In this document: positions 2,115-48,214 of the stretch, in pieces | How positions within the stretch are numbered: position 1 is the first letter of the stretch | How the letters are laid out: each line of letters begins with the position of its first letter | DNA from: Desulfosporosinus youngiae DSM 17734 | GTDB lineage: Bacteria > Bacillota > Desulfitobacteriia > Desulfitobacteriales > Desulfitobacteriaceae | Length of the DNA: 64,000 bases | Direction: 5' to 3' | NCBI RefSeq assembly: GCF_000244895.1 | Contig: NZ_CM001441.1 | Coordinates: 2,004,226-2,068,225 of the forward strand | The notes under the pieces: model-generated | Told to the model about the DNA's origin: nothing | The model's input: only the letters and a program-made list of their open reading frames with translations | Databases searched by the model: none | Translations under genes and position numbers: made by a program

Positions 2115-2645
2115 ATGATGAAAAAGGAAAATATCCTAGCCTCCTACCTTATCAATTTGGGGGAGGAGGTGTTTCGGCTATTACTGGCCAAAGGAGCCAA
2201 AAAGGAAGACGCAGAAGATATAATTCAAAACACCTTTTACAAAGTGTATACTCTGTTAGATGATCTAACAGAGAACAATATACGCCCGTGGTTTTTTAGA
2301 GTAGCACTCAATGAATACATTGACTTGAAAAGGAAAAAAGAGCAGCAGAACATCTACTTAACCGAGGAAATTTATTCTAAGCTGCAACAGTCAGACCACG
2401 AGTTTGAGGCCATTTTAAATAAGGATGAGATTTTTTGCTTGTTAAAAGACATCAAAAAAGAATACAAAGAAATTTTCTTTTTAAAGTACTACTATGATTT
2501 TTCTCATGAAGAAATTGCGTCTATTTTAGAGATTAAGGTTAACAGTGTAAAGCAAAAATTATATCGTGCACGTTTGTTTATTCATTCAAAAATAGGAGGA
2601 AACGTTAATGGAGACTTCGTTAAAAGATTCTTTGCAAAAAGCTAA
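2115..2645 (+). CDS. ECF-type sigma-70 family RNA polymerase sigma factor
   Basis: A 176-residue protein with both ECF sigma regions. Region 2 lies at about residues 25-75 (AEDIIQNTFYKVY, RPWFFRVALNEYIDLKRK). Region 4 lies at about 120-165 (FLKYYYDFSHEEIASILEIKVNSVKQKLYRAR), a helix-turn-helix that reads the -35 element. The preceding GGGAGG is a good ribosome-binding site. The gene overlaps the anti-sigma gene by 38 bp in a different frame, so the two are translationally linked. It probably directs a small envelope-stress regulon that includes its own promoter. Confidence 0.88.
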   Translation: MMKKENILASYLINLGEEVFRLLLAKGAKKEDAEDIIQNTFYKVYTLLDDLTENNIRPWFFRVALNEYIDLKRKKEQQNIYLTEEIYSKLQQSDHEFEAILNKDEIFCLLKDIKKEYKEIFFLKYYYDFSHEEIASILEIKVNSVKQKLYRARLFIHSKIGGNVNGDFVKRFFAKS

Positions 2646-3519
2646 ACTAAAACAATTACTAAAAACCGTTATTATTGCAATTATCGTTGTACTTGTTCTT
2701 TTACCGATCCTTTATAAAACTGGCAATTACTTTGCAGCGAAAAGTTCGACAAGACTTCATGAGCAGTTGTTTCTACACAACGCTATTGCTGAACCCAATA
2801 TTCAAATTGATTCTCAAGTAATAAGTAATTCATCTATGTTTGGCGGCAACATTGTGACGAATCGTTCTAAAAATATTAATGGCTATTTAGTACAATGGAG
2901 CACACTTACAAGTTCGTATGATTGGCTTGGCACCCGTATTGATCACAACGAGTTAATACCGGGATCTTATTGGTCTGATACGGAGTTCTATGAGTATGAT
3001 AAACAAACAAAGAATAAAGTAGCAACATTTTATCATCCATCTATTCAAGAGTACCACAATGGTGTACAAAATGAACTAGGGGAAATTTCACAAATGGAAA
3101 ATCACGTTGCAGAAGTGGCGATTTCTTTCGATCAGCCTTATACATTGCAAGAAATTCAAGCAAGAATTCCCGATAATTTAAACATCGTATGGTTGTATAT
3201 GGCATCACCAGTTGTAGATGAAAGTAAGGGACCTACTGGCATGCAAGTTTATGGGTTTGACTCATCTGATTCACCGAAAGAAGCATATGACAGTTTTATT
3301 GCGGCACTTGAAAAATATGATGAACATGGTTATAACGAAACAATCCAGGAGTTTTTAAATCTAAATAAAAATAAACCGTTTGATGAAGTGAAAATTTTAG
3401 GAGCAATGCTCACCGGCCAAACCGAAAATTTTAAAGCCTTAGAAAATCAGGAGTTTATTCGGGGGGCCTCTGTAGGTGCTACTGCACAAATTGTCCCTTA
3501 TATTAAGCCGGATAAATAA
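2608..3519 (+). CDS. Membrane anti-sigma factor (Sigma_reg_N / Sigma_reg_C type)
   Basis: The 303-residue product has a short cytoplasmic N-terminus, one transmembrane helix at about residues 18-40 (VIIAIIVVLVLLPILY) and a large extracytoplasmic part. Conserved blocks resemble the sigma-factor regulator domains of Firmicute anti-sigma factors: the F-x-x-x-A-x-x-PNI region after the helix and the EVAISFDQPYTLQEIQ block near residue 165-185. The start ATG follows a perfect AGGAGG and lies inside the sigma gene, as in other sigma/anti-sigma pairs. It should hold the sigma factor inactive until an envelope signal arrives; the signal cannot be read from the sequence. Confidence 0.8.
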   Translation: METSLKDSLQKAKLKQLLKTVIIAIIVVLVLLPILYKTGNYFAAKSSTRLHEQLFLHNAIAEPNIQIDSQVISNSSMFGGNIVTNRSKNINGYLVQWSTLTSSYDWLGTRIDHNELIPGSYWSDTEFYEYDKQTKNKVATFYHPSIQEYHNGVQNELGEISQMENHVAEVAISFDQPYTLQEIQARIPDNLNIVWLYMASPVVDESKGPTGMQVYGFDSSDSPKEAYDSFIAALEKYDEHGYNETIQEFLNLNKNKPFDEVKILGAMLTGQTENFKALENQEFIRGASVGATAQIVPYIKPDK

Positions 3520-3889
3520 TTAAACAAGAGACCGGATTAATTTTTGGTCTCCTTGCTTCCTTACGGCGAAATGTGGGGAGATAAAAGCGGTGTATATTCT
3601 CGGAGTATAACCACCCGTTATTATAAACTGACCTTTGGAAGCATGGCGGATAATCTTACGTTAATTATCCTGAGGATTTTGAGTGGTAAAGTCATAGCTA
3701 TATGGAAATTTTTGTGACATCATTAAACAAAAACCTAGTCCCGAAAGCTAATTGGAGGTGCATATATGGCATCGGGTTCACACTGGCCCCGAGGACAGAA
3801 ACAGGCAGCGTGGTGTTTACTGCATGATCAAGGACCTCGATTCCCGTATTGATTTGCGGGGTCTGGGCATACAGAATTTTTTTTCGAAT
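3520..3889. other. Intergenic region without assignable gene
   Basis: A weak stem-loop (GAGACC / GGTCTC, about 3529-3552) may terminate the sigma operon. A short frame opens at 3765 but has no recognisable content and runs into the antisense end of the M56 gene. I see nothing else. Confidence 0.4.
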
Positions 3890-6394
3890 TCACGGTTTGT
3901 ATTGCGGATTGCTCATGGAGAATTTAATTACACCTTGTGAATTGGTAAGTGTGGCTTCGGTAATATCATTGTTCTTTAAATGCTTAAACAGGTTATCATA
4001 CAGCAGGCTGCGAATATCTTCATAGTCATGCTTAAAGATATTGTCCGCAAGACCTGGAATTTCTTTACCTGACGTCGGCATTGTGCAAAAGTTCCTGATG
4101 GATGGACCAAATTCCGAGCCATCTCTTGCTTGCTCGTATTTCTCCAGGATATACTTGCCGCTATCATCTTTGCGGTAGGTGATTGCCGCCGGGATAATGC
4201 TGCCTCCTTCTTCTGATAAAGCGTTGCCAAAAAGCTTATACCTCGCACTATAAGTGGTTACAAAGACCTTTAGCAGATCTTTTTCCTCATAGCTTCCAAA
4301 AAGTTTCGGCGCGACAACCATGAACCCTCCTCTTTTAGAATCTGAATTTTTCTCGATTTCCGTAGCATAGACAAGTTTTTCAATTGGATTCTCACCATCA
4401 TACTTATAATTTGGAAGCATGATCTCCTGGCGGATGGACAGGGCATCGTACCATTCCTGTGGAGACAGGGATTTGTCGCTAACGTTATTTTGCTTCCCCA
4501 AAAGTTCCTTGCACAGCTGCATCATAATCTGCCCGCGCAGTCCTTCGGCATTGCCGGCTTCAAACTGGGTCAGCATGTATTGCAGGGTATCTTCTCCGCC
4601 ATATTTCATGAAGTTTTCATACTCATTTTTATGAGCATTAATATAATCCTGGGGATTTGAAGAAGTCTTTGGCGACGACATAATGATAGCCAAATTACTT
4701 GCAACATCAAAACCGGTCTGATGTTGCGGAGTGTTTCCGGCATCTGTAAAGATAGTGATGATTTCTTGCACAGTGGTAAAGTCGATTTTGTTGATATGGT
4801 CATAGGGCCTATCTATGTAGTAATTTTTTTCATCCTCCGTGTAGAGAAAATAGGAATGGTATGTTTCATCCCCACTCATTTTAATCCGAATATAATCAGG
4901 TACAGGAGGAATGTCGTTCTGAGTTGAATCGAAAAACAGGGATGGGTTATACTTCTCGCCGCTTTGCATAAGAACGGCCATCCGCATGATCGCTTTGCTG
5001 TCGGTAATAGTGACTGATGCGGCATCATTGCCATTCTCATGCTCGGTAAATATTATACTTCGAATCTGGGGATAGCCTGATCCAGCTATCTCTTTCATAG
5101 AAACATAATCCTCCTCTGGAATTATGTAATATCTGAATTTATCTTGATATACTATCATTGCAAGGGTAGGCTCAGATTCGAAAAAACGAATTTCATTGAT
5201 TGTTTCATCCTTCACATGAATAGTAATAGATGGCGAAAGCTCATAAGGTGAGGAAACATTTTTTCTTTTCCAGTCATTTTCAGCAATATCCAGCCATTTT
5301 CCAAGCTCTCTGCCTGCAACAAAAGTATTGCCATAATCGGATGATTCAATTTTTATCTGTTCATGTTCGCCTATCCAGGACAGCATACTATTAGGATTAA
5401 GAAAGGATAAATCCGGTTCATTGTCAGAGGGATTTGATAGCAGTGCTATACCGGCACCTATTAAGACAATGGTCGAAGCAATCACCACCCAAAATACAGG
5501 TTTTTTATAATTCAATACATTCTTAATCCTTGCCTTTACATGGCTTTCACCAAAGGCTAGAGGATTGGCTGCAAAAAGTCCGTTTCTTTTTACCGAAAGT
5601 GAAAGTAGGGAATTGGAGTAACCGCCCTTGGCATCCTGGTTCATCTTTTGCAGAACGCTTTCATCACAAGACATTTCCATATCCCGGCTCATGAATGCGA
5701 AGGACAACCACATAAGCGGATTAAACCAGTGGAGAATAAGGGCGAGAAAAGCAAGGGGTTTAATGAGATAGTCCCGTCTTTGGATGTGTGTGCGTTCGTG
5801 TTCCAGTATGTAGGAAAGGTCAGCGTCTCTAACACTTACAGGCACATATATTTTGGGATGAATAAACCCGCAGACAAAGGCTGTACCGATCTGATCAGAC
5901 TCATAAATATTGTCTTTAACCAGAGTAGCGGTCAGAAGCTGTCTCTTTATTTTTATGTACGAGAGCACACTGTAGGAAAGCAGCACAATAATACCTGCAA
6001 GCCAGATAAGGCTAAAAACATCCATCCACATCTGCAGAGGGTTTACGCTTGCGATTGGTGCAGTCTGGGGCAAGGATGAGTTCACTGTGCTGTCTAAGCT
6101 GCCTATATCGGATTGAAGTGCAGGTGCTGGCATAGAACCAATATCAGGGGGCACATATTCCAGCACACCCGCTTTGTTCTGTGAATTCACATTCAGCAGT
6201 CCTAAAAAACTAAAGGCTGTAGTGAAGGAGAAAGGGAAAATGAGCCGAAACAGCACCACTGCCCATAAGGCATAAGAGAAAATCTTGGGGGCTTTTCTTA
6301 AAAGCATTCGAACAAGAATAACGCCGCCAGCCACATAGGACGCGGTGATGCTCATGTTCAGAACGGTTGTGAACATTCCTTGTATGTTGCTCAT
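3890..6394 (-). CDS. BlaR1/MecR1-like M56 family membrane metallopeptidase with long extracellular domain
   Basis: 834 residues. The N-terminal third holds four membrane segments and the zinc-protease motif HERTH (HExxH, residues 199-203) followed by RRDYLIKPLAFLALILHWFNPLMW, diagnostic of M56 antirepressors. A further helix at about 305-325 precedes some 500 residues outside the cell. These lack the SxxK penicillin-binding motif of BlaR1 in any place I could identify, so the ligand is probably not a beta-lactam. The gene overlaps the upstream repressor gene by 4 nt. On sensing its ligand it would trigger cleavage of that repressor. Confidence 0.85.
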   Translation of the reverse strand: MSNIQGMFTTVLNMSITASYVAGGVILVRMLLRKAPKIFSYALWAVVLFRLIFPFSFTTAFSFLGLLNVNSQNKAGVLEYVPPDIGSMPAPALQSDIGSLDSTVNSSLPQTAPIASVNPLQMWMDVFSLIWLAGIIVLLSYSVLSYIKIKRQLLTATLVKDNIYESDQIGTAFVCGFIHPKIYVPVSVRDADLSYILEHERTHIQRRDYLIKPLAFLALILHWFNPLMWLSFAFMSRDMEMSCDESVLQKMNQDAKGGYSNSLLSLSVKRNGLFAANPLAFGESHVKARIKNVLNYKKPVFWVVIASTIVLIGAGIALLSNPSDNEPDLSFLNPNSMLSWIGEHEQIKIESSDYGNTFVAGRELGKWLDIAENDWKRKNVSSPYELSPSITIHVKDETINEIRFFESEPTLAMIVYQDKFRYYIIPEEDYVSMKEIAGSGYPQIRSIIFTEHENGNDAASVTITDSKAIMRMAVLMQSGEKYNPSLFFDSTQNDIPPVPDYIRIKMSGDETYHSYFLYTEDEKNYYIDRPYDHINKIDFTTVQEIITIFTDAGNTPQHQTGFDVASNLAIIMSSPKTSSNPQDYINAHKNEYENFMKYGGEDTLQYMLTQFEAGNAEGLRGQIMMQLCKELLGKQNNVSDKSLSPQEWYDALSIRQEIMLPNYKYDGENPIEKLVYATEIEKNSDSKRGGFMVVAPKLFGSYEEKDLLKVFVTTYSARYKLFGNALSEEGGSIIPAAITYRKDDSGKYILEKYEQARDGSEFGPSIRNFCTMPTSGKEIPGLADNIFKHDYEDIRSLLYDNLFKHLKNNDITEATLTNSQGVIKFSMSNPQYKP

Positions 6395-7410: not shown

Positions 7411-7792
7411 CATTGGGAGCGTACCCATCAGTACTGCAGCTGGTGCGGAGCTCGGACAGAAAACAAACTAGATGATAGTGGCGATTACAAGAGACCGCAA
7501 ACTATTATTAGCGAAAGGGAGTGGCTTTCAAGGCGACTTCTATAGCGTTTTGGCCGGTTTTGTAGAACCAGGGGAAACATTTGAAGAGTGTGTGCAAAGA
7601 GAAGTCAGAGAAGAAGTTGGCCTGGAAGTTGAGGGTAATTCCGCTGCGCACTTGAAAACAAGCACTGTAGGGGCATCCCAAACGGTCATTGTTCATCAGG
7701 GAACATTGCTCTTAGGCCGTTGGCAGGGCATTTATTTTTGTGAATTTGACGGTCCGCGAGAACGTACTTGTTATGTAAAGATCCTTATGTGA
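7411..7792 (+). pseudogene. Chimeric remnant: NudC zinc ribbon and Nudix box joined to YjbQ C-terminus
   Basis: Three pieces are joined. From 7411 one frame reads the NudC zinc ribbon (HWERTHQYCSWCGARTENK). Then, in another frame from about 7472, it reads [18 protein letters not shown] and the Nudix box up to GLEVE, almost identical in DNA to positions 46-204. At about 7636 it switches to the C-terminus of a YjbQ/UPF0047 protein ([32 protein letters not shown]). NudC is thus internally deleted, frameshifted and truncated, and YjbQ has lost its N-terminal half. A hybrid 106-residue product could be translated but is unlikely to be active. Confidence 0.75.
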
Positions 7793-27989: not shown

Positions 27990-28412
27990 GTGGACAGCTT
28001 GGAAGATACAAGAATTAAGGTTTTAATGTGTTGTCTCGGACCCGAGACACATAATCGCGGCATCATTGTGGTGAGTACCATTTTAAAAGAAGAAGGTATG
28101 GAAGTTGTCTATATGGGCAACACCACTGCAGAAAATGCCCTGAAAGCAGCCCTGGAAGAAGATGCCCAAATTATTGGGGTCAGCTCACTATCGGGAGCTC
28201 ATCTGCGGACAGGCAAACATCTTTTGGAATTAGCCAGACAAAAAGGCCTTGAGCAAAGTATGGCCTTTGTCATTGGTGGAGTCATTCCGCCCCAGGATGT
28301 TAAAATTCTCAAGGACATGGGTTTTTATGATGTTTGCGTTAGCGGCACGAAAAGGGATGACTTAGTAACTGTAGTAAAAAGTGCCGCTCATACGGTTAGT
28401 AAGGTTTACTGA
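27990..28412 (+). CDS. B12-binding small subunit of acyl-CoA mutase, variant motif
   Basis: 140 residues with the B12 Rossmann-like fold of mutase small subunits. The usual K-x-G-x-D-G-H-D-R-G stretch reads CLGPETHNRG: the cobalt-ligating His and the final Gly are kept, but Asp is Glu and the upstream Lys is Cys. IGVSSLSGAHL and VIGGVIPPQD are conserved. It begins at GTG (27990) 9 nt after the mutase gene; a TTG at 27999 is possible. It should pair with the large subunit just upstream. Confidence 0.87.
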   Translation: MDSLEDTRIKVLMCCLGPETHNRGIIVVSTILKEEGMEVVYMGNTTAENALKAALEEDAQIIGVSSLSGAHLRTGKHLLELARQKGLEQSMAFVIGGVIPPQDVKILKDMGFYDVCVSGTKRDDLVTVVKSAAHTVSKVY

Positions 28413-40780: not shown

Positions 40781-41130
40781 CTTGTCGGAATAATGGTTAT
40801 AAAGTAGTACGCTGGCAGCCTGCCGATAATTTTGTTCAAAACTTTAACGTTTGCAGTAATAGCAGCTATTGCCAGAGGGAGTAGAGGGCTTAAAATTTAC
40901 TGAATATTTTAAATATTAAATGATTGAGGAGTTTAGTATTTGTGACTGCAATAGCTTACGCATCGAATTCAAAAGCTTAGGGATGGCTGATTTTCGGCTT
41001 AAGTAACAGGTTGTTTTGAAGAAATAGTCAAAAGGGGGTGTTCCATAAATCGGTAAGATAAATAAAATTACACTTCAAGAAGCCGCTGAAGTTGACCCGG
41101 AAGGAGTTTCGGTTGATACGTTCATAATCC

Positions 41131-41269
41131 GTTGCAATACAGCAACGGACCACTCAAATATGCAACACAGAGCTTAAAACAAGTCTGCAGCGCTATTGCA
41201 ACGGGGTGGCGGGGTAAACTATGGCGGTTGCAACGGGCAATAGCAGTTTTTGCGTTGCGGCAGCGCAAC
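41131..41269. promoter_or_regulatory. Two GTTGC-N6-GCAAC dyads, probable activator sites
   Basis: GTTGCAATACAGCAAC (41131-41146) and GTTGCGGCAGCGCAAC (41254-41269) share the same 16-bp dyad. A weaker version with N5 is at 41227-41241. They lie 75-215 bp upstream of the -24/-12 promoter, as expected for enhancer sites. Confidence 0.55.
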
Positions 41270-41343
41270 AATTGTTAGAAATTTTTTTATTTATGAAACA
41301 TTCAAACATAGGCATTTAGCCATAATTCAGAATTATTTGATAT

Positions 41344-41359
41344 TGGCATTATTCTTGCT
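41344..41359 (+). promoter_or_regulatory. Sigma-54 promoter of second mutase operon
   Basis: TTGGCATTATTCTTGCT: GG (41345-41346) and GC (41357-41358) are exactly 10 nt apart and fit TGGCAC-N5-TTGCW with one mismatch. It is about 100 bp before the adenosyltransferase start. Confidence 0.85.
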
Positions 41360-41460
41360 TATAAATTGAGTAAGAGATGCGAAATTAATGATAAGTGGAC
41401 CTCCCCTACCTTAAGGTGCCCTTTACTTGACGGGGAAGAGTGAAGAAAGAGGTGAATACA

Positions 41461-42012
41461 TTGAGTGTGATGCAGTCCACGGCGAGCATAGCCAAGCGTG
41501 GTTTGGTGATGGTGATTACGGGTAACGGCAAGGGTAAGACAACGTCCTTCTTTGGTCAGGCCTTACGGGCTATTGGCCAGGGCTACAAGGTATGTGTTAT
41601 TCAGTTTATGAAGGGACGTAAATACGGAGAGGTGATTGCCGCGGAAAAGTACCTTCCGGACTTGCAAATCTATCAATTCGGACTGGATAGTTTTGTCATG
41701 CGCAACAATCCTGCGCCGGTAGACGTGGAGATGGCCCGGCAAGGTCTGGAAAAAGCTAAAGAGATTATTGCCGGTGGTAAATTTGACATGGTCATCCTGG
41801 ATGAGATTAATGTGGCTGTTGACTTTAAGCTCATTCCGGAGGAAGACGTGCTGGAGATGATTAAAAATAAGCCGGCGGAATTGGATTTATTGTTAAGCGG
41901 CCGGTATGCTTCCGATAAGTTGAGAGAAATAGCTGATTTGGTAAGTGAAGTTACCGAGATAAAACATCACTATAACGCGGGTATTAAAGATAGGGCAGGG
42001 ATTGAGTACTAA
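41461..42012 (+). CDS. cobA: Cob(I)alamin adenosyltransferase, CobA/BtuR type
   Basis: About 183 residues. P-loop GNGKGKTT, then FFGQALRAIGQGYKVCVIQFMKG and DMVILDEINVAVDF are CobA/CobO signatures. I prefer the TTG at 41461, six nt after AAAGAGGTG; the GTG at 41440 has its site too close. The enzyme transfers adenosyl from ATP to cob(I)alamin. Being first in the operon, it gives the following mutase its own supply of adenosylcobalamin. Confidence 0.9.
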   Translation: MSVMQSTASIAKRGLVMVITGNGKGKTTSFFGQALRAIGQGYKVCVIQFMKGRKYGEVIAAEKYLPDLQIYQFGLDSFVMRNNPAPVDVEMARQGLEKAKEIIAGGKFDMVILDEINVAVDFKLIPEEDVLEMIKNKPAELDLLLSGRYASDKLREIADLVSEVTEIKHHYNAGIKDRAGIEY

Positions 42013-42039: not shown

Positions 42040-43722
42040 TTGATTACTGAAGAATTAGCCAATAAGTCAAGCGCATTAAGGCAAAAATGGGAAGATGAAG
42101 TTAAAAAAATAGTGGCCAAACACCCTGACCAAAAAGAAAGCTGGACCACGGTTTCTGATTTGGATATTAAGAGAATATACGGCCCTGAGGACATTAAAGA
42201 TATGGATTTTGAGCGGGATATAGCTTATCCGGGACAATATCCCTATTTGAGAGGCTGCCAGCCGTCCGGTTACCGCGGAAAATACTGGACCTTCAGAATG
42301 TTCTCTGGTATGGGTACGGCTGTTGAAACCAACAAGCGCTGGAAATACCTGTTAGCCACCGGCCAGACCGGCCTGAGTACGGCCTTTGATTTCCCGACCC
42401 TGATGGGTTATGATACTGATTCCCCCAAAGCCAGGGGTGAGTGTGGAAAAGTAGGGGTGGCGATTGATAGCATCGCAGATTTCAGAGACCTGATCGCAGG
42501 GATTCCACTGGATAAGATAACCACCTCTATGACCATTAACCCGCCGGCAACTATCTTATGGGCTATGTATATTGCCTGTGCCCAGGAACAGGGAATTCCT
42601 CTGAACAAAATCGGCGGTACCATTCAGAATGATATGTTAAAAGAATTTATTGCCCAGAAAACCTTTATGTGCCCGCCCGAGCCGTCCGTAAAATTAGTCA
42701 GTGATACCATAGAGTTTGGGACCAAATATGTACCCAAGTGGAATACCGTCAGTATCAGCGGTTATCACATCAGAGAAGCCGGCTCAACCGCTGTACAGGA
42801 ACTGGCCTTCACTTTAAGAGACGGTATGGAATATGTAGAAGACGTGATCAAACGTAAAGGGTTACAGGTTGATGAATTTGCTCCCAGATTATCCTTCTTC
42901 TTTAACGCGCATATCGATTTCTTTGAAGAAATTGCTAAATTAAGAGCCGCCCGCCGGATCTGGGCTAAAGCAATGCGTGAGCGTTATGGCGCCAAGGACC
43001 CGCGTTCCTTATGGATGAGATTCCATACCCAGACTGCCGGATGCTCGCTTACTGCCCAGCAGCCCTACAATAACGTGGTGCGGACGGCTATTGAAGCTCT
43101 GGCCGGTGTTCTCGGCGGCACCCAGTCCCTGCACACCAACTCACTGGACGAAGTTCTGTGCCTGCCTTCAGACCATGCCGTGCAAATTGCCCTGCGGACT
43201 CAGCAGATTATCGCTGAAGAAACCGGTGTGGCCAGCACGATTGACCCGCTGGCCGGTTCATATTTTGTGGAAGCGCTGACCAATGAAATGGAAGAAAAAA
43301 CTTGGGATTATATTCATAAGATCGACGATATGGGAGGTATGATTGCCGCTATCGAGAAGGGCTTCCCGCAGCTGGAAATTTCCGATGCTTCTTATAAATT
43401 CCAAAAGCAAATTGATGCTCAGGAAAAAGTCATGATCGGTGTGAACAAGTATGTTCAGGAAGATGAACAGGTTGACATTCCGATCGTAGAAATAGATGAC
43501 TCTGTGGAAGCGGAACAGCTCAATCGTCTGGCTGAAGTTAAGAGAAAGCGCGACGGACGTAAAGTGGCGGAAACCCTTAAAGATATCGAGGCTGCTTGTA
43601 AGAAAGGCGAAAATGTGATGCCTTATTGTATTGAGGCGGTTAAGAGCTATGCCACTGTTCAGGAAATCTGCGATGTTTACAGGGGAGTTTATGGTGAGTA
43701 CCGCGACCCCGGCATTTACTAA
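42040..43722 (+). CDS. Acyl-CoA mutase large subunit, isobutyryl-CoA mutase-like
   Basis: 560 residues, the length of IcmA-type large subunits. By alignment with characterised enzymes, the substrate-determining Tyr/Arg pair of methylmalonyl-CoA mutase is Phe88 (TFRMFSG) and Gln206 (KEFIAQK), 118 residues apart as in isobutyryl-CoA mutase. The position that is Asp in 2-hydroxyisobutyryl-CoA mutase is Ala115 (LSTAFD). The catalytic His is kept (His243, SGYHIREAG). It therefore probably interconverts isobutyryl- and n-butyryl-CoA, or a close branched/linear pair such as pivalyl/isovaleryl-CoA. Start is TTG after GGGGGG. Confidence 0.9.
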   Translation: MITEELANKSSALRQKWEDEVKKIVAKHPDQKESWTTVSDLDIKRIYGPEDIKDMDFERDIAYPGQYPYLRGCQPSGYRGKYWTFRMFSGMGTAVETNKRWKYLLATGQTGLSTAFDFPTLMGYDTDSPKARGECGKVGVAIDSIADFRDLIAGIPLDKITTSMTINPPATILWAMYIACAQEQGIPLNKIGGTIQNDMLKEFIAQKTFMCPPEPSVKLVSDTIEFGTKYVPKWNTVSISGYHIREAGSTAVQELAFTLRDGMEYVEDVIKRKGLQVDEFAPRLSFFFNAHIDFFEEIAKLRAARRIWAKAMRERYGAKDPRSLWMRFHTQTAGCSLTAQQPYNNVVRTAIEALAGVLGGTQSLHTNSLDEVLCLPSDHAVQIALRTQQIIAEETGVASTIDPLAGSYFVEALTNEMEEKTWDYIHKIDDMGGMIAAIEKGFPQLEISDASYKFQKQIDAQEKVMIGVNKYVQEDEQVDIPIVEIDDSVEAEQLNRLAEVKRKRDGRKVAETLKDIEAACKKGENVMPYCIEAVKSYATVQEICDVYRGVYGEYRDPGIY

Positions 43723-43754
43723 GATTGAGTTCAGAATTAAAGGAGGCAAGTGTG

Positions 43755-44159
43755 ATGGCAGAAAGAAGAATTCGTATACTGTTGTCTAAACCCGGCTTAG
43801 ACGGCCATGATCGCGGGGCTAAGGTGTTAGCCAGGTGCTTCAGGGATGCCGGTTTTGAGGTGATTTATACCGGATGTCACCAGACTCCGGAGCAAATAGC
43901 TGCCGCCGCTATTCAGGAAGATGTTGATCTTGTGGGCTTAAGCTGTTTATCAGGTGCGCACAAGTACTTGTTCCCGCAAGTCGTTAATCTTTTGAAGGAG
44001 GAAGGTGCCGATGATATCTGCGTTATCGGCGGGGGGATTATTCCCGAGCAGGATATGCAGCCTCTTTATGACGCGGGACTGAAAGCATTATTTACTCCGG
44101 GAGCCAAACTTGATTCACTGGTGGAGTGGATTAATACAAATGTAACTCCAAGGGCGTGA
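43755..44159 (+). CDS. B12-binding small subunit of acyl-CoA mutase
   Basis: 134 residues from the ATG at 43755 after AAAGGAGG. The full motif SKPGLDGHDRG (Lys, Asp, cobalt-ligating His, Gly) is present, then VGLSCLSGAHK and VIGGGIIPEQD. It should form the heterotetramer with the large subunit encoded upstream. Compare the two variant B12 domains in this window, which differ in exactly these residues. Confidence 0.93.
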   Translation: MAERRIRILLSKPGLDGHDRGAKVLARCFRDAGFEVIYTGCHQTPEQIAAAAIQEDVDLVGLSCLSGAHKYLFPQVVNLLKEEGADDICVIGGGIIPEQDMQPLYDAGLKALFTPGAKLDSLVEWINTNVTPRA

Positions 44160-44164
44160 GTGCG

Positions 44165-45127
44165 ATGAAAGAATTAGGACAAAAAGTATTGGCGGGAGAT
44201 GTGCGTTCAGCCTCTCGCCTCATCAGAAACCTGGAAGATCAAATACCCGGCACCCATGTTGCTATGCAGCAAATTTTTACTAAAACCGGTAATGCCCATG
44301 TCATAGGCATTACCGGTGCCCCGGGGGCCGGTAAAAGTACCTTGACAGATGAACTGGTTTTTTCCTGGCGTCAGAGAAACAAGACGGTCGGTGTTCTGGC
44401 AGTAGACCCCACCAGTCCCTTTACCGGGGGAGCGCTTTTGGGAGACAGAATCCGTATGCTGCGGCATGCTGAGGATAAAGGGGTATTCTTGCGCAGCCTG
44501 GCTACCAGGGGTTCTATGGGCGGCATATCCAAGGCTGTGGGAGAAGCCATCCATGTTATGGATGCTATGGGCAAAGACTCCATAATAATCGAAACTGTCG
44601 GGGTGGGGCAGCAAGAGGTAGAAATCATTAATCATGCTCATACTGTAATCGTTGTTCTGGTGCCCGGTATGGGGGATGAAATACAGGCTCTTAAAGCCGG
44701 CTTAATGGAGATAGCGGATATCTTTATCATTAATAAGGCAGACCGTGACGGTGCCGCGAACTTGTATAAGGAAGTCTCGAACATGATTCATATGTCTGTT
44801 GCCAAAGGTGGTTGGGAAATACCTGTATTACTGGTGGAAAGCGTACAGGAACCTAAAAAATTCGCCGAGAGTGTGTCGGTTGTATGCGATAAGATAGAAG
44901 ATCATTACCGCTTCCTGGTGGACAATAACCTTTTGTCTGAGCGTTTGCGCCGTAAGACTGCTGCCGAATTTAATGAAGCTTTGTGGGGAGCAATCCTGCA
45001 GCCGGTATTAGATGACCTGGATGAAGGCGGAGAAATGGAAAAAATGATTGATACGTTATTGAAAAAAGAAACAGATCCCTATACTCTGGCAGAGGAAGTA
45101 GCCGTCAGGTATAAAAACAGGGTTTAA
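44165..45127 (+). CDS. meaB: MeaB-type G-protein chaperone
   Basis: About 320 residues. P-loop GAPGAGKST, DPTSPFTGGALLGDRIRM, ETVGVGQQEVEI and NKAD are conserved. I prefer the ATG at 44165 (AAGGGCG 9 nt upstream); a GTG at 44156 overlaps the previous stop. It serves the isobutyryl-type mutase. It is clearly related to, but distinct from, the copy in the first island. Confidence 0.92.
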   Translation: MKELGQKVLAGDVRSASRLIRNLEDQIPGTHVAMQQIFTKTGNAHVIGITGAPGAGKSTLTDELVFSWRQRNKTVGVLAVDPTSPFTGGALLGDRIRMLRHAEDKGVFLRSLATRGSMGGISKAVGEAIHVMDAMGKDSIIIETVGVGQQEVEIINHAHTVIVVLVPGMGDEIQALKAGLMEIADIFIINKADRDGAANLYKEVSNMIHMSVAKGGWEIPVLLVESVQEPKKFAESVSVVCDKIEDHYRFLVDNNLLSERLRRKTAAEFNEALWGAILQPVLDDLDEGGEMEKMIDTLLKKETDPYTLAEEVAVRYKNRV

Positions 45128-45200: not shown

Positions 45201-45626
45201 ATGAATAAGCGAACAATAAAGGTTCTGCTGGCTAAGGCCGGGATGGATAATCAGAATAAGGAAATCCGCGTTCTGGCTCGTGGTTTAAGAGAACAGGGCG
45301 GCATGGATGTTATTTATACAGGTTTGTATTGTTCACTTGAGGAAATAGCTGAAACAGTACTGCGGGAGGCTGTTGATCTGGTGGGGTTATTTGTGCATAA
45401 CGGTTCCCACCTGGATTTATACCCGCGCTTGCATGATCTGCTGGCTGCCCAAAATACCGGGCATGTTCCGGTTTTCGGAGGGGGCTTGATACCCGAGCGG
45501 CACCGGCAGGAGCTTAAAGCTCAAGGGATGGCAGCTGAGATATTCGGGCCAGGCACCTCCACCCGCAGTATAATTGCCTGGATTAATCAGGTGCCGGCTG
45601 CCGGTGAGGAAGGAGAAACAGTATGA
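45201..45626 (+). CDS. Degenerate B12-domain protein lacking the cobalt-ligating His
   Basis: 141 residues, with the same fold pattern as the mutase small subunit four genes' width upstream: KVLLAKAGMDNQNKEIRVLARGLREQGG, DLVGLFVHNGSHLDLYPRL and VPVFGGGLIPERH. The motif D-G-H-D-R-G is D-N-Q-N-K-E: the axial His is Gln and the terminal Gly is Glu. It cannot bind B12 in the base-off/His-on way. It may be a structural partner, decoy, chaperone or base-on binder. The next small gene overlaps it by 4 nt. Confidence 0.8.
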   Translation: MNKRTIKVLLAKAGMDNQNKEIRVLARGLREQGGMDVIYTGLYCSLEEIAETVLREAVDLVGLFVHNGSHLDLYPRLHDLLAAQNTGHVPVFGGGLIPERHRQELKAQGMAAEIFGPGTSTRSIIAWINQVPAAGEEGETV

Positions 45627-45820
45627 GAATATTAAAAGAAGATGTTATCATTCCGCTGGGCCGCATGTATTTTATCCCTAAAGAAGACGGCCTGAAAGCG
45701 GAGGATTTAATCTTTGAAACAGCCGGCAAATACAGAGTCATTGATAAGCCCGACTGTATTGCCGTGCATAATGACGACTGCTGCAAGAGTATTAAGGTTA
45801 CTATAAAAATTAAAGATTAA
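45623..45820 (+). CDS. 65-residue protein coupled to the degenerate B12-domain gene
   Basis: The start overlaps the previous stop (ATGA), so translation is coupled. The product starts MRILKEDVIIPLGRMYFIPK, is rich in charged and beta-prone residues, and has a CC pair in HNDDCCKSIKVTI near the C-terminus, with nearby His and Asp residues that could bind metal. I do not recognise a family. It closes the sigma-54 operon. Confidence 0.7.
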   Translation: MRILKEDVIIPLGRMYFIPKEDGLKAEDLIFETAGKYRVIDKPDCIAVHNDDCCKSIKVTIKIKD

Positions 45821-46117: not shown

Positions 46118-48214
46118 TTGAAAGTTCGGGAAATTATGACCCCTGATCCTTTAACCATAAGTCCCAATCATAAGGTTTGCGAGGTCGTCAATATTTTTAT
46201 AGCCAATAAGATAGACGGTGCCCCGGTGTTAGACGAAAAGGGTAAATTGGTAGGCCTTTTTACCAAGAGTCATATTTACCGCGCCATAAGCAGGGGCCTG
46301 GATATGAATACGAAGGTGGAAGACTTAATGACCCGGAAGATTCTTACGGGTCATCCTGAGGATGAGTTTGGGGACGTACTTAATGCTACGGTGCCCCGGC
46401 TGCCCGTTGTGAATGAAAACGGGCAGGTAGTGGGGATCATTACCCGCGGCGATATTGCCAAAGCTTTCTTTAATTCTTATCGCAATATGTCCCTTGAACT
46501 TGATACGATTATAAATTCAACTCATAATGCAATTATTTCCGTGGATGAAAAAGGCATAATTAATGTCTGGAATTTGTCGGCCGCCAAGCTGCTGGGTATT
46601 GAGGCAGAGGATGCTGCCGGGAAAAGTATACGGGAGGTACTTCCTACCGCTAAACTGATGGATGTAATTCAGACCGGAAAAGTCGAAACTCTTAAGAAAG
46701 TAAAACTCAATGACCGTTACTTTATGTCCAATCGTTCTCCGATTAAAAAGGACGGCAAGATTATCGGTGCCGTTGCGGTGCTCCAGGATATCTCCGAGCT
46801 GGATAAGATGTCCAAGGAACTGTTCTATGTGAAGGAATTAAATGAGGAGTTGGATGCCATAGTGGAATCATCCTTTGACGGGTTATTTATAACTGACGGC
46901 AAAGGAAAAATCCTGCGCTATAATAAGGCTTTTGAACAGCTGACGGGCATCAATGCCCATGAATACCTGGGACTAAGTGTGGAGGACATCAGAAGAGACG
47001 GCATTATTTCTGAACCTGTAACCTGCCATGTCTTGGAGAAGAAGAAATCCATCACGATTATGCAGACAAGTAAAACCGGCAAACTTACGCTGACTACGGG
47101 AAACCCGGTCATAGATGCAAGCGGCGAAATAATCAGGGTTGTCTGCAATGTCAGAGATATCACTGAATTAAATCTCTTGAAACACCAGCTGAAAAAAGCC
47201 CAGGGGCTAAGCCAGCACTATGAAAACCAGCTTCGCACCTTGAGGCTGCGCTATGATAATACCGAAAGCCTGGTGGTTAGCTCGGCTAAGATGAGGCAGC
47301 TGTTGGATATGGTGATCAGGCTGGCCTCAGTTGATTCTACTATTTTAATCATGGGTGAATCAGGTACCGGTAAGGAACTGATAGCCGAGACAATTCACAG
47401 CAACAGCTCACGCCGGGATAAACCGTTTATTAAGGTGAACTGCGGTGCTATCCCTGAAAATTTATTGGAATCGGAATTATTCGGCTATGATGGCGGGGCC
47501 TTTACCGGGGCCAAACGGGAAGGTAAATCAGGATATATTGAACTGGCTTCCGGAGGGACTTTATTCCTGGATGAAATTGGTGAAATGCCGCTGAATTTAC
47601 AGGTTAAGGTGCTGCGGTTCTTGCAAAACAAAGAAATTATCCGGGTCGGGGGATCAAGTGTTATTAATGTGGATGTGCGCATTGTCGCCGCTACAAACAG
47701 GGATCTGTTGGAAATGGTGCAGCATAAGCAGTTTCGCGAGGATCTTTATTACCGGTTAAATGTAGTGCCTGTGTGTGTCCCGCCCCTGCGCGGCCGCAAA
47801 GATGATATCCCCCCGCTGGCGGCACATTTCGTAGAGGTATTTAACTACAAATATAAAAAGAATAAAAAGATATCACAGAGTGTGGTTGATATTCTGATGC
47901 AGTATGACTGGCCCGGCAATATCAGAGAATTGGAAAACCTGATTGAGAGAATGGTTGTTACGACCATAGATGATAACATCACCGGCGAGGATTTGCCTTC
48001 CTTCCTGCGGGATAAAGTTGGGAGCAGTTCCTCATATATTATTGTTTCGGGGATAGTGCCCTTAAGGGATGCTGTAGAAAGTGTGGAGAAGCAGCTGTTG
48101 GAAAGAGTTTATGCCAACTATCGAACGACCAGGCAGATGGCTAAGGAATTAAAAGTTGATGCCTCTACTGTGGTCAGAAAGGCAGCAAAGTATTGTATTA
48201 TCAGGGATTCCTGA
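46118..48214 (+). CDS. Sigma-54-dependent activator with CBS pair, two PAS domains, AAA+ and HTH
   Basis: 698 residues from TTG (AGGAAGTG upstream). Two CBS motifs fill residues 1-120 (VREIMTPDPLTISPNHKV; VEDLMTRKILTGHPEDEF). PAS domains lie at about 130-235 and 245-350. The AAA+ part has GESGTGKE, the sigma-54 contact motif GAFTGA, FLDEIGEMPL and a C-terminal Fis-type helix (TTRQMAKELKVDASTVVRKA). CBS pairs bind adenosyl ligands (AMP, ATP, SAM) in many proteins. It probably controls the second mutase operon through the GTTGC-N6-GCAAC dyads. Confidence 0.92.
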   Translation: MKVREIMTPDPLTISPNHKVCEVVNIFIANKIDGAPVLDEKGKLVGLFTKSHIYRAISRGLDMNTKVEDLMTRKILTGHPEDEFGDVLNATVPRLPVVNENGQVVGIITRGDIAKAFFNSYRNMSLELDTIINSTHNAIISVDEKGIINVWNLSAAKLLGIEAEDAAGKSIREVLPTAKLMDVIQTGKVETLKKVKLNDRYFMSNRSPIKKDGKIIGAVAVLQDISELDKMSKELFYVKELNEELDAIVESSFDGLFITDGKGKILRYNKAFEQLTGINAHEYLGLSVEDIRRDGIISEPVTCHVLEKKKSITIMQTSKTGKLTLTTGNPVIDASGEIIRVVCNVRDITELNLLKHQLKKAQGLSQHYENQLRTLRLRYDNTESLVVSSAKMRQLLDMVIRLASVDSTILIMGESGTGKELIAETIHSNSSRRDKPFIKVNCGAIPENLLESELFGYDGGAFTGAKREGKSGYIELASGGTLFLDEIGEMPLNLQVKVLRFLQNKEIIRVGGSSVINVDVRIVAATNRDLLEMVQHKQFREDLYYRLNVVPVCVPPLRGRKDDIPPLAAHFVEVFNYKYKKNKKISQSVVDILMQYDWPGNIRELENLIERMVVTTIDDNITGEDLPSFLRDKVGSSSSYIIVSGIVPLRDAVESVEKQLLERVYANYRTTRQMAKELKVDASTVVRKAAKYCIIRDS

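Follow-up and report, generated by a model that had tools for sequence, protein, structure and literature searches.

B12-binding domains carry DxHxxG as their lower-ligand motif, with SxL and GG as further motifs. In the inactive subunit of methylmalonyl-CoA mutase the B12 domain is degenerate. Such a subunit is common in bacterial methylmalonyl-CoA mutases and is not predicted to touch the G-domain, and the same goes for the inactive subunit of the M. extorquens mutase (PMC9974510). Contacts between M. extorquens MeaB and the B12 domain of its mutase are made by strand 612-616, Asp609, Asp632 and Asp634 of the domain, and the G-domain contacts of IcmF include Gln75, Glu76 and Asp77 (PMC9974510). 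Gene clusters for isobutyryl-CoA mutase (ICM) have been named in Syntrophothermus lipocalidus and Syntrophomonas BUT1 (PMC5017805, PMC6687939).

The locus described here lies in a window of 64,000 nucleotides, the whole stretch of DNA analysed, which is part of the 5.66-Mb one-contig genome of Desulfosporosinus youngiae DSM 17734. It resembles the S. lipocalidus ICM cluster, Slip_0757-0760, in comprising an adenosyltransferase, two mutase subunits and a MeaB-like protein (PMC5017805). It also encodes a second B12-domain protein without the axial His and a 65-aa small protein, neither of which figures in the passages of PMC5017805 that name those four genes. In the open-licence PMC literature, we found no paper describing the small protein of ICM operons or an additional B12 subunit that lacks the His.

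Operon layout and regulation

All genes of the operon are on the forward strand. A CobA/CobO-type ATP:corrinoid adenosyltransferase (41440..42012; PF02572, 203.9 bits) is followed by the mutase large subunit IcmA, of the isobutyryl-CoA mutase type (42040..43722; PF01642, 725.5 bits), the true B12-binding small subunit IcmB with DGHDRG (43755..44159; TIGR00640, 168.4 bits), and the G-protein chaperone MeaB (44156..45127; TIGR00750, 303.5 bits, above the cut-off). The IcmB reading frame is listed from a TTG at 43725, and the ATG at 43755 was used as its start. Next come the His-less B12-domain paralogue, a putative pseudo-subunit of 141 aa (45201..45626), the 65-aa small protein (45623..45820), and a gene for a sigma-54 activator with CBS and PAS domains (46118..48214; PF00158, 239.3 bits). 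The order adenosyltransferase, mutase, B12 subunit and MeaB given in a first-pass annotation of this DNA is confirmed by the open reading frames and profile matches, and the operon genes are likely to share a single transcript.

The same annotation described a sigma-54 operon. A sigma-54 type promoter of the pattern GG-N10-GC, TGGCATTATTCTTGC, is located at 41344..41358, but this pattern matches six times in the window against 2.86 expected, and the site by itself is weak evidence. A perfect palindrome, CCGTTGC-N6-GCAACGG (41129..41148), is a probable upstream activator site, with imperfect copies at 41185-41204 and 41252-41271 (three mismatches each). The promoter motif does recur, however: upstream of the adenosyltransferase gene, a (T/C)GGC-N8-TGC site occurs in 13 of 26 scanned loci and GTTGC-N6-GCAA(C/A) in 8 of 26, counts for which the shuffled control covers the window only. 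Counting the window, a sigma-54 activator gene is present on the fetched stretch of 11 loci, and all eight loci with the latter motif belong to this group. Homologues of the activator adjoin the ICM operon in 10 other loci, and the product of 46118..48214 is the probable regulator of this operon. Scans for sigma-70 promoters and terminators gave matches no more numerous than in shuffled sequence.

The substrate of the mutase was assessed from alignments of IcmA to 4r3u_A, 8gju and 1req. At the position held by Tyr in methylmalonyl-CoA mutase and by Ile in 2-hydroxyisobutyryl-CoA mutase, IcmA has Phe; an Arg of methylmalonyl-CoA mutase is replaced by Gln, and an Asp of 2-hydroxyisobutyryl-CoA mutase by Ala. 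We take Phe, Gln and Ala at the substrate site to be marks of isobutyryl-CoA mutase, and the large subunit at 42040-43722 carries both the Phe and the Gln; these residues suggest isobutyryl-CoA as the substrate. By overall score IcmA is closest to 2-hydroxyisobutyryl-CoA mutase (570.9 bits). Second ICM-like mutase copies (77-79%) were observed in loci L097 (G224:C17) and L109 (G469:C14), each with its own small subunit, which reads DMHPQG in L109, and with no accessory genes on the fetched stretch.

A second B12-domain protein in the operon

The reading frame 45201-45626 encodes a B12-domain protein, as had been proposed. It scores 69.5 bits against PF02310 (cut-off 32.1) and 88.8 bits against TIGR00640 (cut-off 57.45), and has the profile and Rossmann-like fold of these families. 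Its AlphaFold2 model has a pLDDT of 84.5, with a less certain motif loop (mean 70 over residues 11-20). The nearest solved fold found by Foldseek is the small subunit of 4r3u (4r3u_D; E 3e-12, TM 0.85, rmsd 1.3), and the A3 profile of the paralogue scores 140 bits against 4r3u_C. In fold, profile and mutase-operon setting, the protein is therefore like the small subunits IcmB, HcmB and that of 2-hydroxyisobutyryl-CoA mutase (4R3U). It differs from the small B12-binding subunits of acyl-CoA mutases in lacking the axial His and the Leu of SxL, and from a usual small subunit in that the true IcmB is already encoded two genes upstream. The motif substitution reported in the first-pass annotation is present: the segment KPGLDGHDRG of the IcmB encoded in the operon corresponds to KAGMDNQNKE in the paralogue, so that DxHxxG is replaced by DNQNKE. 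The Ser of SxL is also missing (F64), but GG is kept. With its 141 aa the protein is a B12 domain only, with no TIM barrel fused to it.

In a tree with 27 IcmB and 10 other small subunits, the 19 paralogues group together in a single clade (support 100/98), which also holds when the motif columns are removed; the tree and the motif counts leave out L098_icmB, which is partial, and L109_icmB, which has a very long branch. DxHxxG is intact in six members (DSHDRG in five, DAHDKG in one), while the others read DSHNKK (1), DSQNKK (3), DNQNKE (2), DNQDKE (1), DSDGKE (1), DQDGKE (1) and DPNNKR (4). The expectation that no homologue would retain the His was not borne out, since 7 of the 19 keep it and 12 have lost it; the Gly of DxHxxG is gone in 13, and the second Gly of GG is kept in 11 and gone in 8. 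The fewest changes on the tree are three for the His and two for the intact motif. These patterns indicate that the paralogue arose once from a B12-binding small subunit and that DxHxxG was lost at least twice. The motif can differ even between close members: of the proteins from L057 and L061, which share about 80% identity, one reads DSHDRG and the other reads DSDGKE.

Other pocket positions have changed throughout the clade. Pro13, Gly17, Leu66 (of SxL) and Ser67 are kept in 37/37 true small subunits and changed in 19/19 paralogues, none of which has the Leu of SxL. At position 66, ten paralogues have His, eight have Tyr and one has Ser, against Leu in all 37 true subunits, and position 43 is Tyr in every paralogue but His in 35 of the 37. 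Even the His-keeping members therefore have an altered pocket, and from these residues we infer that the 12 His-less members would not bind cobalamin in the normal His-on manner.

The residues predicted to face MeaB tend to follow the state of the His. We aligned query residues 4-118 with residues 45-159 of the 4xc6 chain, less a 20-residue tag that the chain numbering presumably includes, and Gln75-Glu76-Asp77 of IcmF would then correspond to positions 55-57 of the paralogue alignment. The true subunits have QED here, in 37/37 cases at each position. His-keeping paralogues retain Gln55 in 6/7, Glu56 in 7/7 and Asp57 in 6/7 cases, compared with 2/12, 5/12 and 1/12 among His-less paralogues. 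The His and the MeaB patch thus tend to be kept or lost together.

Distribution and gene order

A search of 99 other genomes of relatives returned the paralogue in two, G026 and G027, at 88-89%, and the small protein in the same two; the other readable proteins in the 30 returned loci that were read keep DGHDRG. Of 398 genomes sampled across the phylum, 11 have the mutase (E <= 1e-250), the window's genome included, and strong small-protein matches (E <= 2e-18) fell in exactly the same 11. Five weaker small-protein matches (E 6.5e-6 to 0.008) lie in genomes without such a mutase. ICM at 95-100% was found in 5 of 29 genomes of the genus sample, and 19 of 54 genomes of family f18 have ICM. Together, the phylum sample, the genus and f18 gave a set of 27 ICM genomes (identity >= 77%), which are not independent, 19 being of one family, and which include several fragmented assemblies.

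Among these 27, the small protein is present in 23 and the paralogue in 19. Conservation outside the strain is thereby established, and we reject the idea of a strain-specific oddity, as both proteins occur in many other ICM genomes. The small protein is missing from G003, G006, G493 and G486, where in G486 the contig ends before its expected place, and the paralogue from G003, G006, G178, G288, G335, G489, G493 and G500. The paralogue gene directly follows meaB on the same strand in all 18 loci (window included) with both on one contig, with gaps of -32 to 242 nt (73 nt in the window). The first-pass annotation had suggested looking for the pair beside mutase genes in other genomes. The small protein lies 45 kb from the mutase in G178, and about 4 kb away on the opposite strand in G488. 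The pair is not obligate, as five of the 27 genomes encode the small protein but no paralogue, and in 13 loci other genes separate the two.

The common order outside the genus is adenosyltransferase, IcmA, IcmB, MeaB, paralogue, C_GCAxxG protein (PF09719), MtnA-like isomerase (PF01008) and small protein, and it is the C_GCAxxG protein gene and/or the isomerase gene that intervenes in those 13 loci. The MtnA-like isomerase was found in L057 (7948-8988) and 17 other loci, and the C_GCAxxG_C_C putative redox protein in L057 (9071-9613) and nine other loci. The window's genome has no close copy of the isomerase (best match 40%), and the operon-type isomerase has a seven-residue deletion beside the HC motif that is absent from that genome's own MtnA. 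In the DHAP shunt, 5-deoxyribose-1-phosphate is a substrate of MtnA (PMC10986504); by analogy, a role of the divergent operon copy in coenzyme upkeep might be guessed at.

The best of the weaker small-protein matches is in G115, whose best mutases are at 57% and 51%. On one contig, locus L066 of this genome holds a decayed small-protein fragment ending KNDECCRSIKVTVKIKE (about 7500-7640) and, about 4 kb apart, a 109-residue MtnA-like piece (about 3569-3898). These fragments look as if the module had decayed once ICM was lost.

Several further sequences were observed. A genome contig scan returned only two loci, L039 (Desulfosporosinus sp. UBA8487) and L040, the latter a Bacteroidetes contig with a 36% match to the paralogue at 2640-3014 and with one of the paralogue's peptide patterns. 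Within the window, an open frame of 143 codons contains a further match of the B12-binding type at positions 28011-28358 (G000:C1:2032236-2032583; L004), which shares 30% identity with the paralogue and scores 59.9 bits against the clade profile. A protein of 138-199 residues, without a Pfam or NCBIfam match, adjoins the small protein in five loci (L057:7085-7684, L098, L099, L101 and L102), and downstream of the small protein in G450 (L061:4774-5751) lies an open frame that by eye resembles a CoA-transferase subunit.

The 65-aa small protein

The frame at 45623-45820 overlaps the paralogue gene by ATGA, as had been noted. This overlap is seen only in three same-genus loci, and we do not take it as a sign of an obligate pair, given the loci with intervening genes. 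The Cys pair with nearby His/Asp that had been pointed out is conserved in part, with the Cys-Cys invariant in an alignment of 21 homologues but the His confined to the three same-genus ones. The AlphaFold2 model (pLDDT 93.3) is all-beta, with six strands and no helix of at least four residues.

Searches for a known family gave no match in Pfam-A above the cut-off for the first member (best E 0.0079 among the 21 members), no NCBIfam match for the window protein or its L059 homologue, and a best E of 0.29 in a profile search of PDB sequences. For the model, Foldseek gave a best E of 0.47 and VIA a best Z of 5.2, to ZapD, the latter within the range of common arrangements; neither search yielded a convincing relative. 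Plasmid records held no small-protein match, and the mutase relatives there were all below 60% identity. On these comparisons the small protein constitutes a new family. It is an ICM-linked factor separate from the paralogue and may, at a guess, bind to the mutase complex as a small partner.

Selection and losses

For the paralogue, dN/dS (Nei-Gojobori counts, Jukes-Cantor correction, 300 codon resamplings) is 0.31, 0.40 and 0.51 in the genus trio and 0.10-0.23 in seven other pairs. The bootstrap interval is below 1 in nine of ten pairs, and that of the third trio pair reaches 1.54. Neutral decay with dN/dS near 1, against which the pseudo-subunit proposal was to be checked, is made less likely by these ratios of 0.10-0.51. 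IcmB gives 0.01-0.13 in nine matched pairs, the rate of the paralogue being 1.9-15 times that value, and the small protein gives 0.11 and 0.14 for two pairs, with no amino-acid change in a third. The codon counts thus show purifying selection on the paralogue, looser than on IcmB.

Two genomes of the same genus, G003 and G006, have ICM at 95-96% identity and the four core genes followed by the activator gene, with no pair between them, and the pair is therefore dispensable. In the G006 gap, a stretch of 43 bp aligns with the paralogue with 39 identities (54.0 bits, against 24.3 for the best of 100 mononucleotide shuffles), which indicates that the paralogue was once present there and then deleted. 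The G003 gap gave no paralogue match at E <= 1, and keeps sequence resembling the region downstream of the small protein.

Possible roles of the paralogue

Conservation, linkage to meaB and purifying selection make an accessory role for the mutase the natural inference, and both the paralogue and the small protein probably have a part in the assembly, tuning or maintenance of ICM. The earlier proposal of a pseudo-subunit that aids the mutase is upheld in these respects, but not as an obligate pair. Loading, repair and allostery are not told apart by the sequence. Our leading reading, which we hold tentatively and at somewhat below even chances, is that the 141-aa protein is a non-catalytic second ICM subunit. 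It would dock on the mutase large subunit at the place of IcmB, or on a partly assembled mutase, without cobalamin. The result would be an asymmetric or 'parked' enzyme, with one half-site held cofactor-free and the other carrying IcmB-cobalamin. Both the docking partner and the regulatory effect are put forward as proposals. The analogy is with the inactive subunit of heterodimeric bacterial methylmalonyl-CoA mutases, likewise an inactive mutase partner; that it is not predicted to touch the G-domain (PMC9974510) agrees with the loss of QED in His-less paralogues. That subunit, however, is a full-length chain with a TIM barrel, whereas the paralogue is a single domain and belongs to ICM. Further points against a second subunit are that, given the members with an intact DxHxxG or His, the whole clade need not be B12-free, that ICM occurs without the pair in G003 and G006 and without the paralogue in six further genomes, and that the paralogue evolves faster than IcmB.

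A rival reading is a cobalamin escort or acceptor, which would take cofactor from the adenosyltransferase, or damaged cofactor from the mutase, in a mode other than His-on involving His/Tyr66 and Tyr43. Position 66 being mostly His or Tyr, the invariant Tyr43, the six members with an intact DxHxxG, and a gene placed between meaB and, often, that of a C_GCAxxG redox-type protein all suit such a carrier, which we nevertheless consider unlikely, if with some real chance, given the losses of the His and of the Gly residues of DxHxxG and GG. Moreover, chaperones of the MeaB type do not themselves bind cobalamin during delivery, and its transfer from the adenosyltransferase is direct (PMC9974510), so that no extra carrier is needed. 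The constant position after meaB in every testable locus could instead reflect a mimic of the apo B12 domain that stimulates or titrates the MeaB GTPase, an activity raised 25-fold by an isolated apo B12 domain (PMC9974510), and most of the edge strand pairing with MeaB (residues 35-39) has been retained. What weakens a direct role of this kind is that, by our alignment, most His-less members no longer have the contact patch at positions 55-57; as it erodes along with the His, we ranked this role below first choice and regard it as improbable. Hardly more probable is that the protein is the relic of a former B12 subunit, subject to drift and on its way to loss. Motif loss in at least two lineages, fast evolution, the deletion in the G006 line and the absence in G003 would all be expected of one. 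Neutral decay as the main reading was nonetheless ranked lower because nine of the ten pairs have a dN/dS well under 1, and the frames are open in 19/19 members, at a fixed position and retained over several families.

If the non-catalytic second subunit is considered with its neighbours, the ICM operons of anaerobic Firmicutes might be mutase-maintenance modules, in which a cofactor-free pseudo-B12 subunit would hold the mutase during cobalamin exchange, the C_GCAxxG protein would supply electrons to reduce cob(II)alamin, the MtnA-like isomerase would salvage the 5'-deoxyadenosine of spent coenzyme, and the Cys-Cys small protein would take part; we offer this as a speculative and rather unlikely extension.

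A B12 domain without its cofactor grip, encoded beside meaB and under selection, would offer a handle on the assembly and upkeep of AdoCbl mutases. The motif series within one clade (DSHDRG, DAHDKG, DSHNKK, DSQNKK, DNQNKE, DSDGKE, DQDGKE, DPNNKR) permits a stepwise study of binding. The small protein serves as a specific marker for this type of ICM; it may also be a component so far missing from anaerobic isobutyrate conversion.
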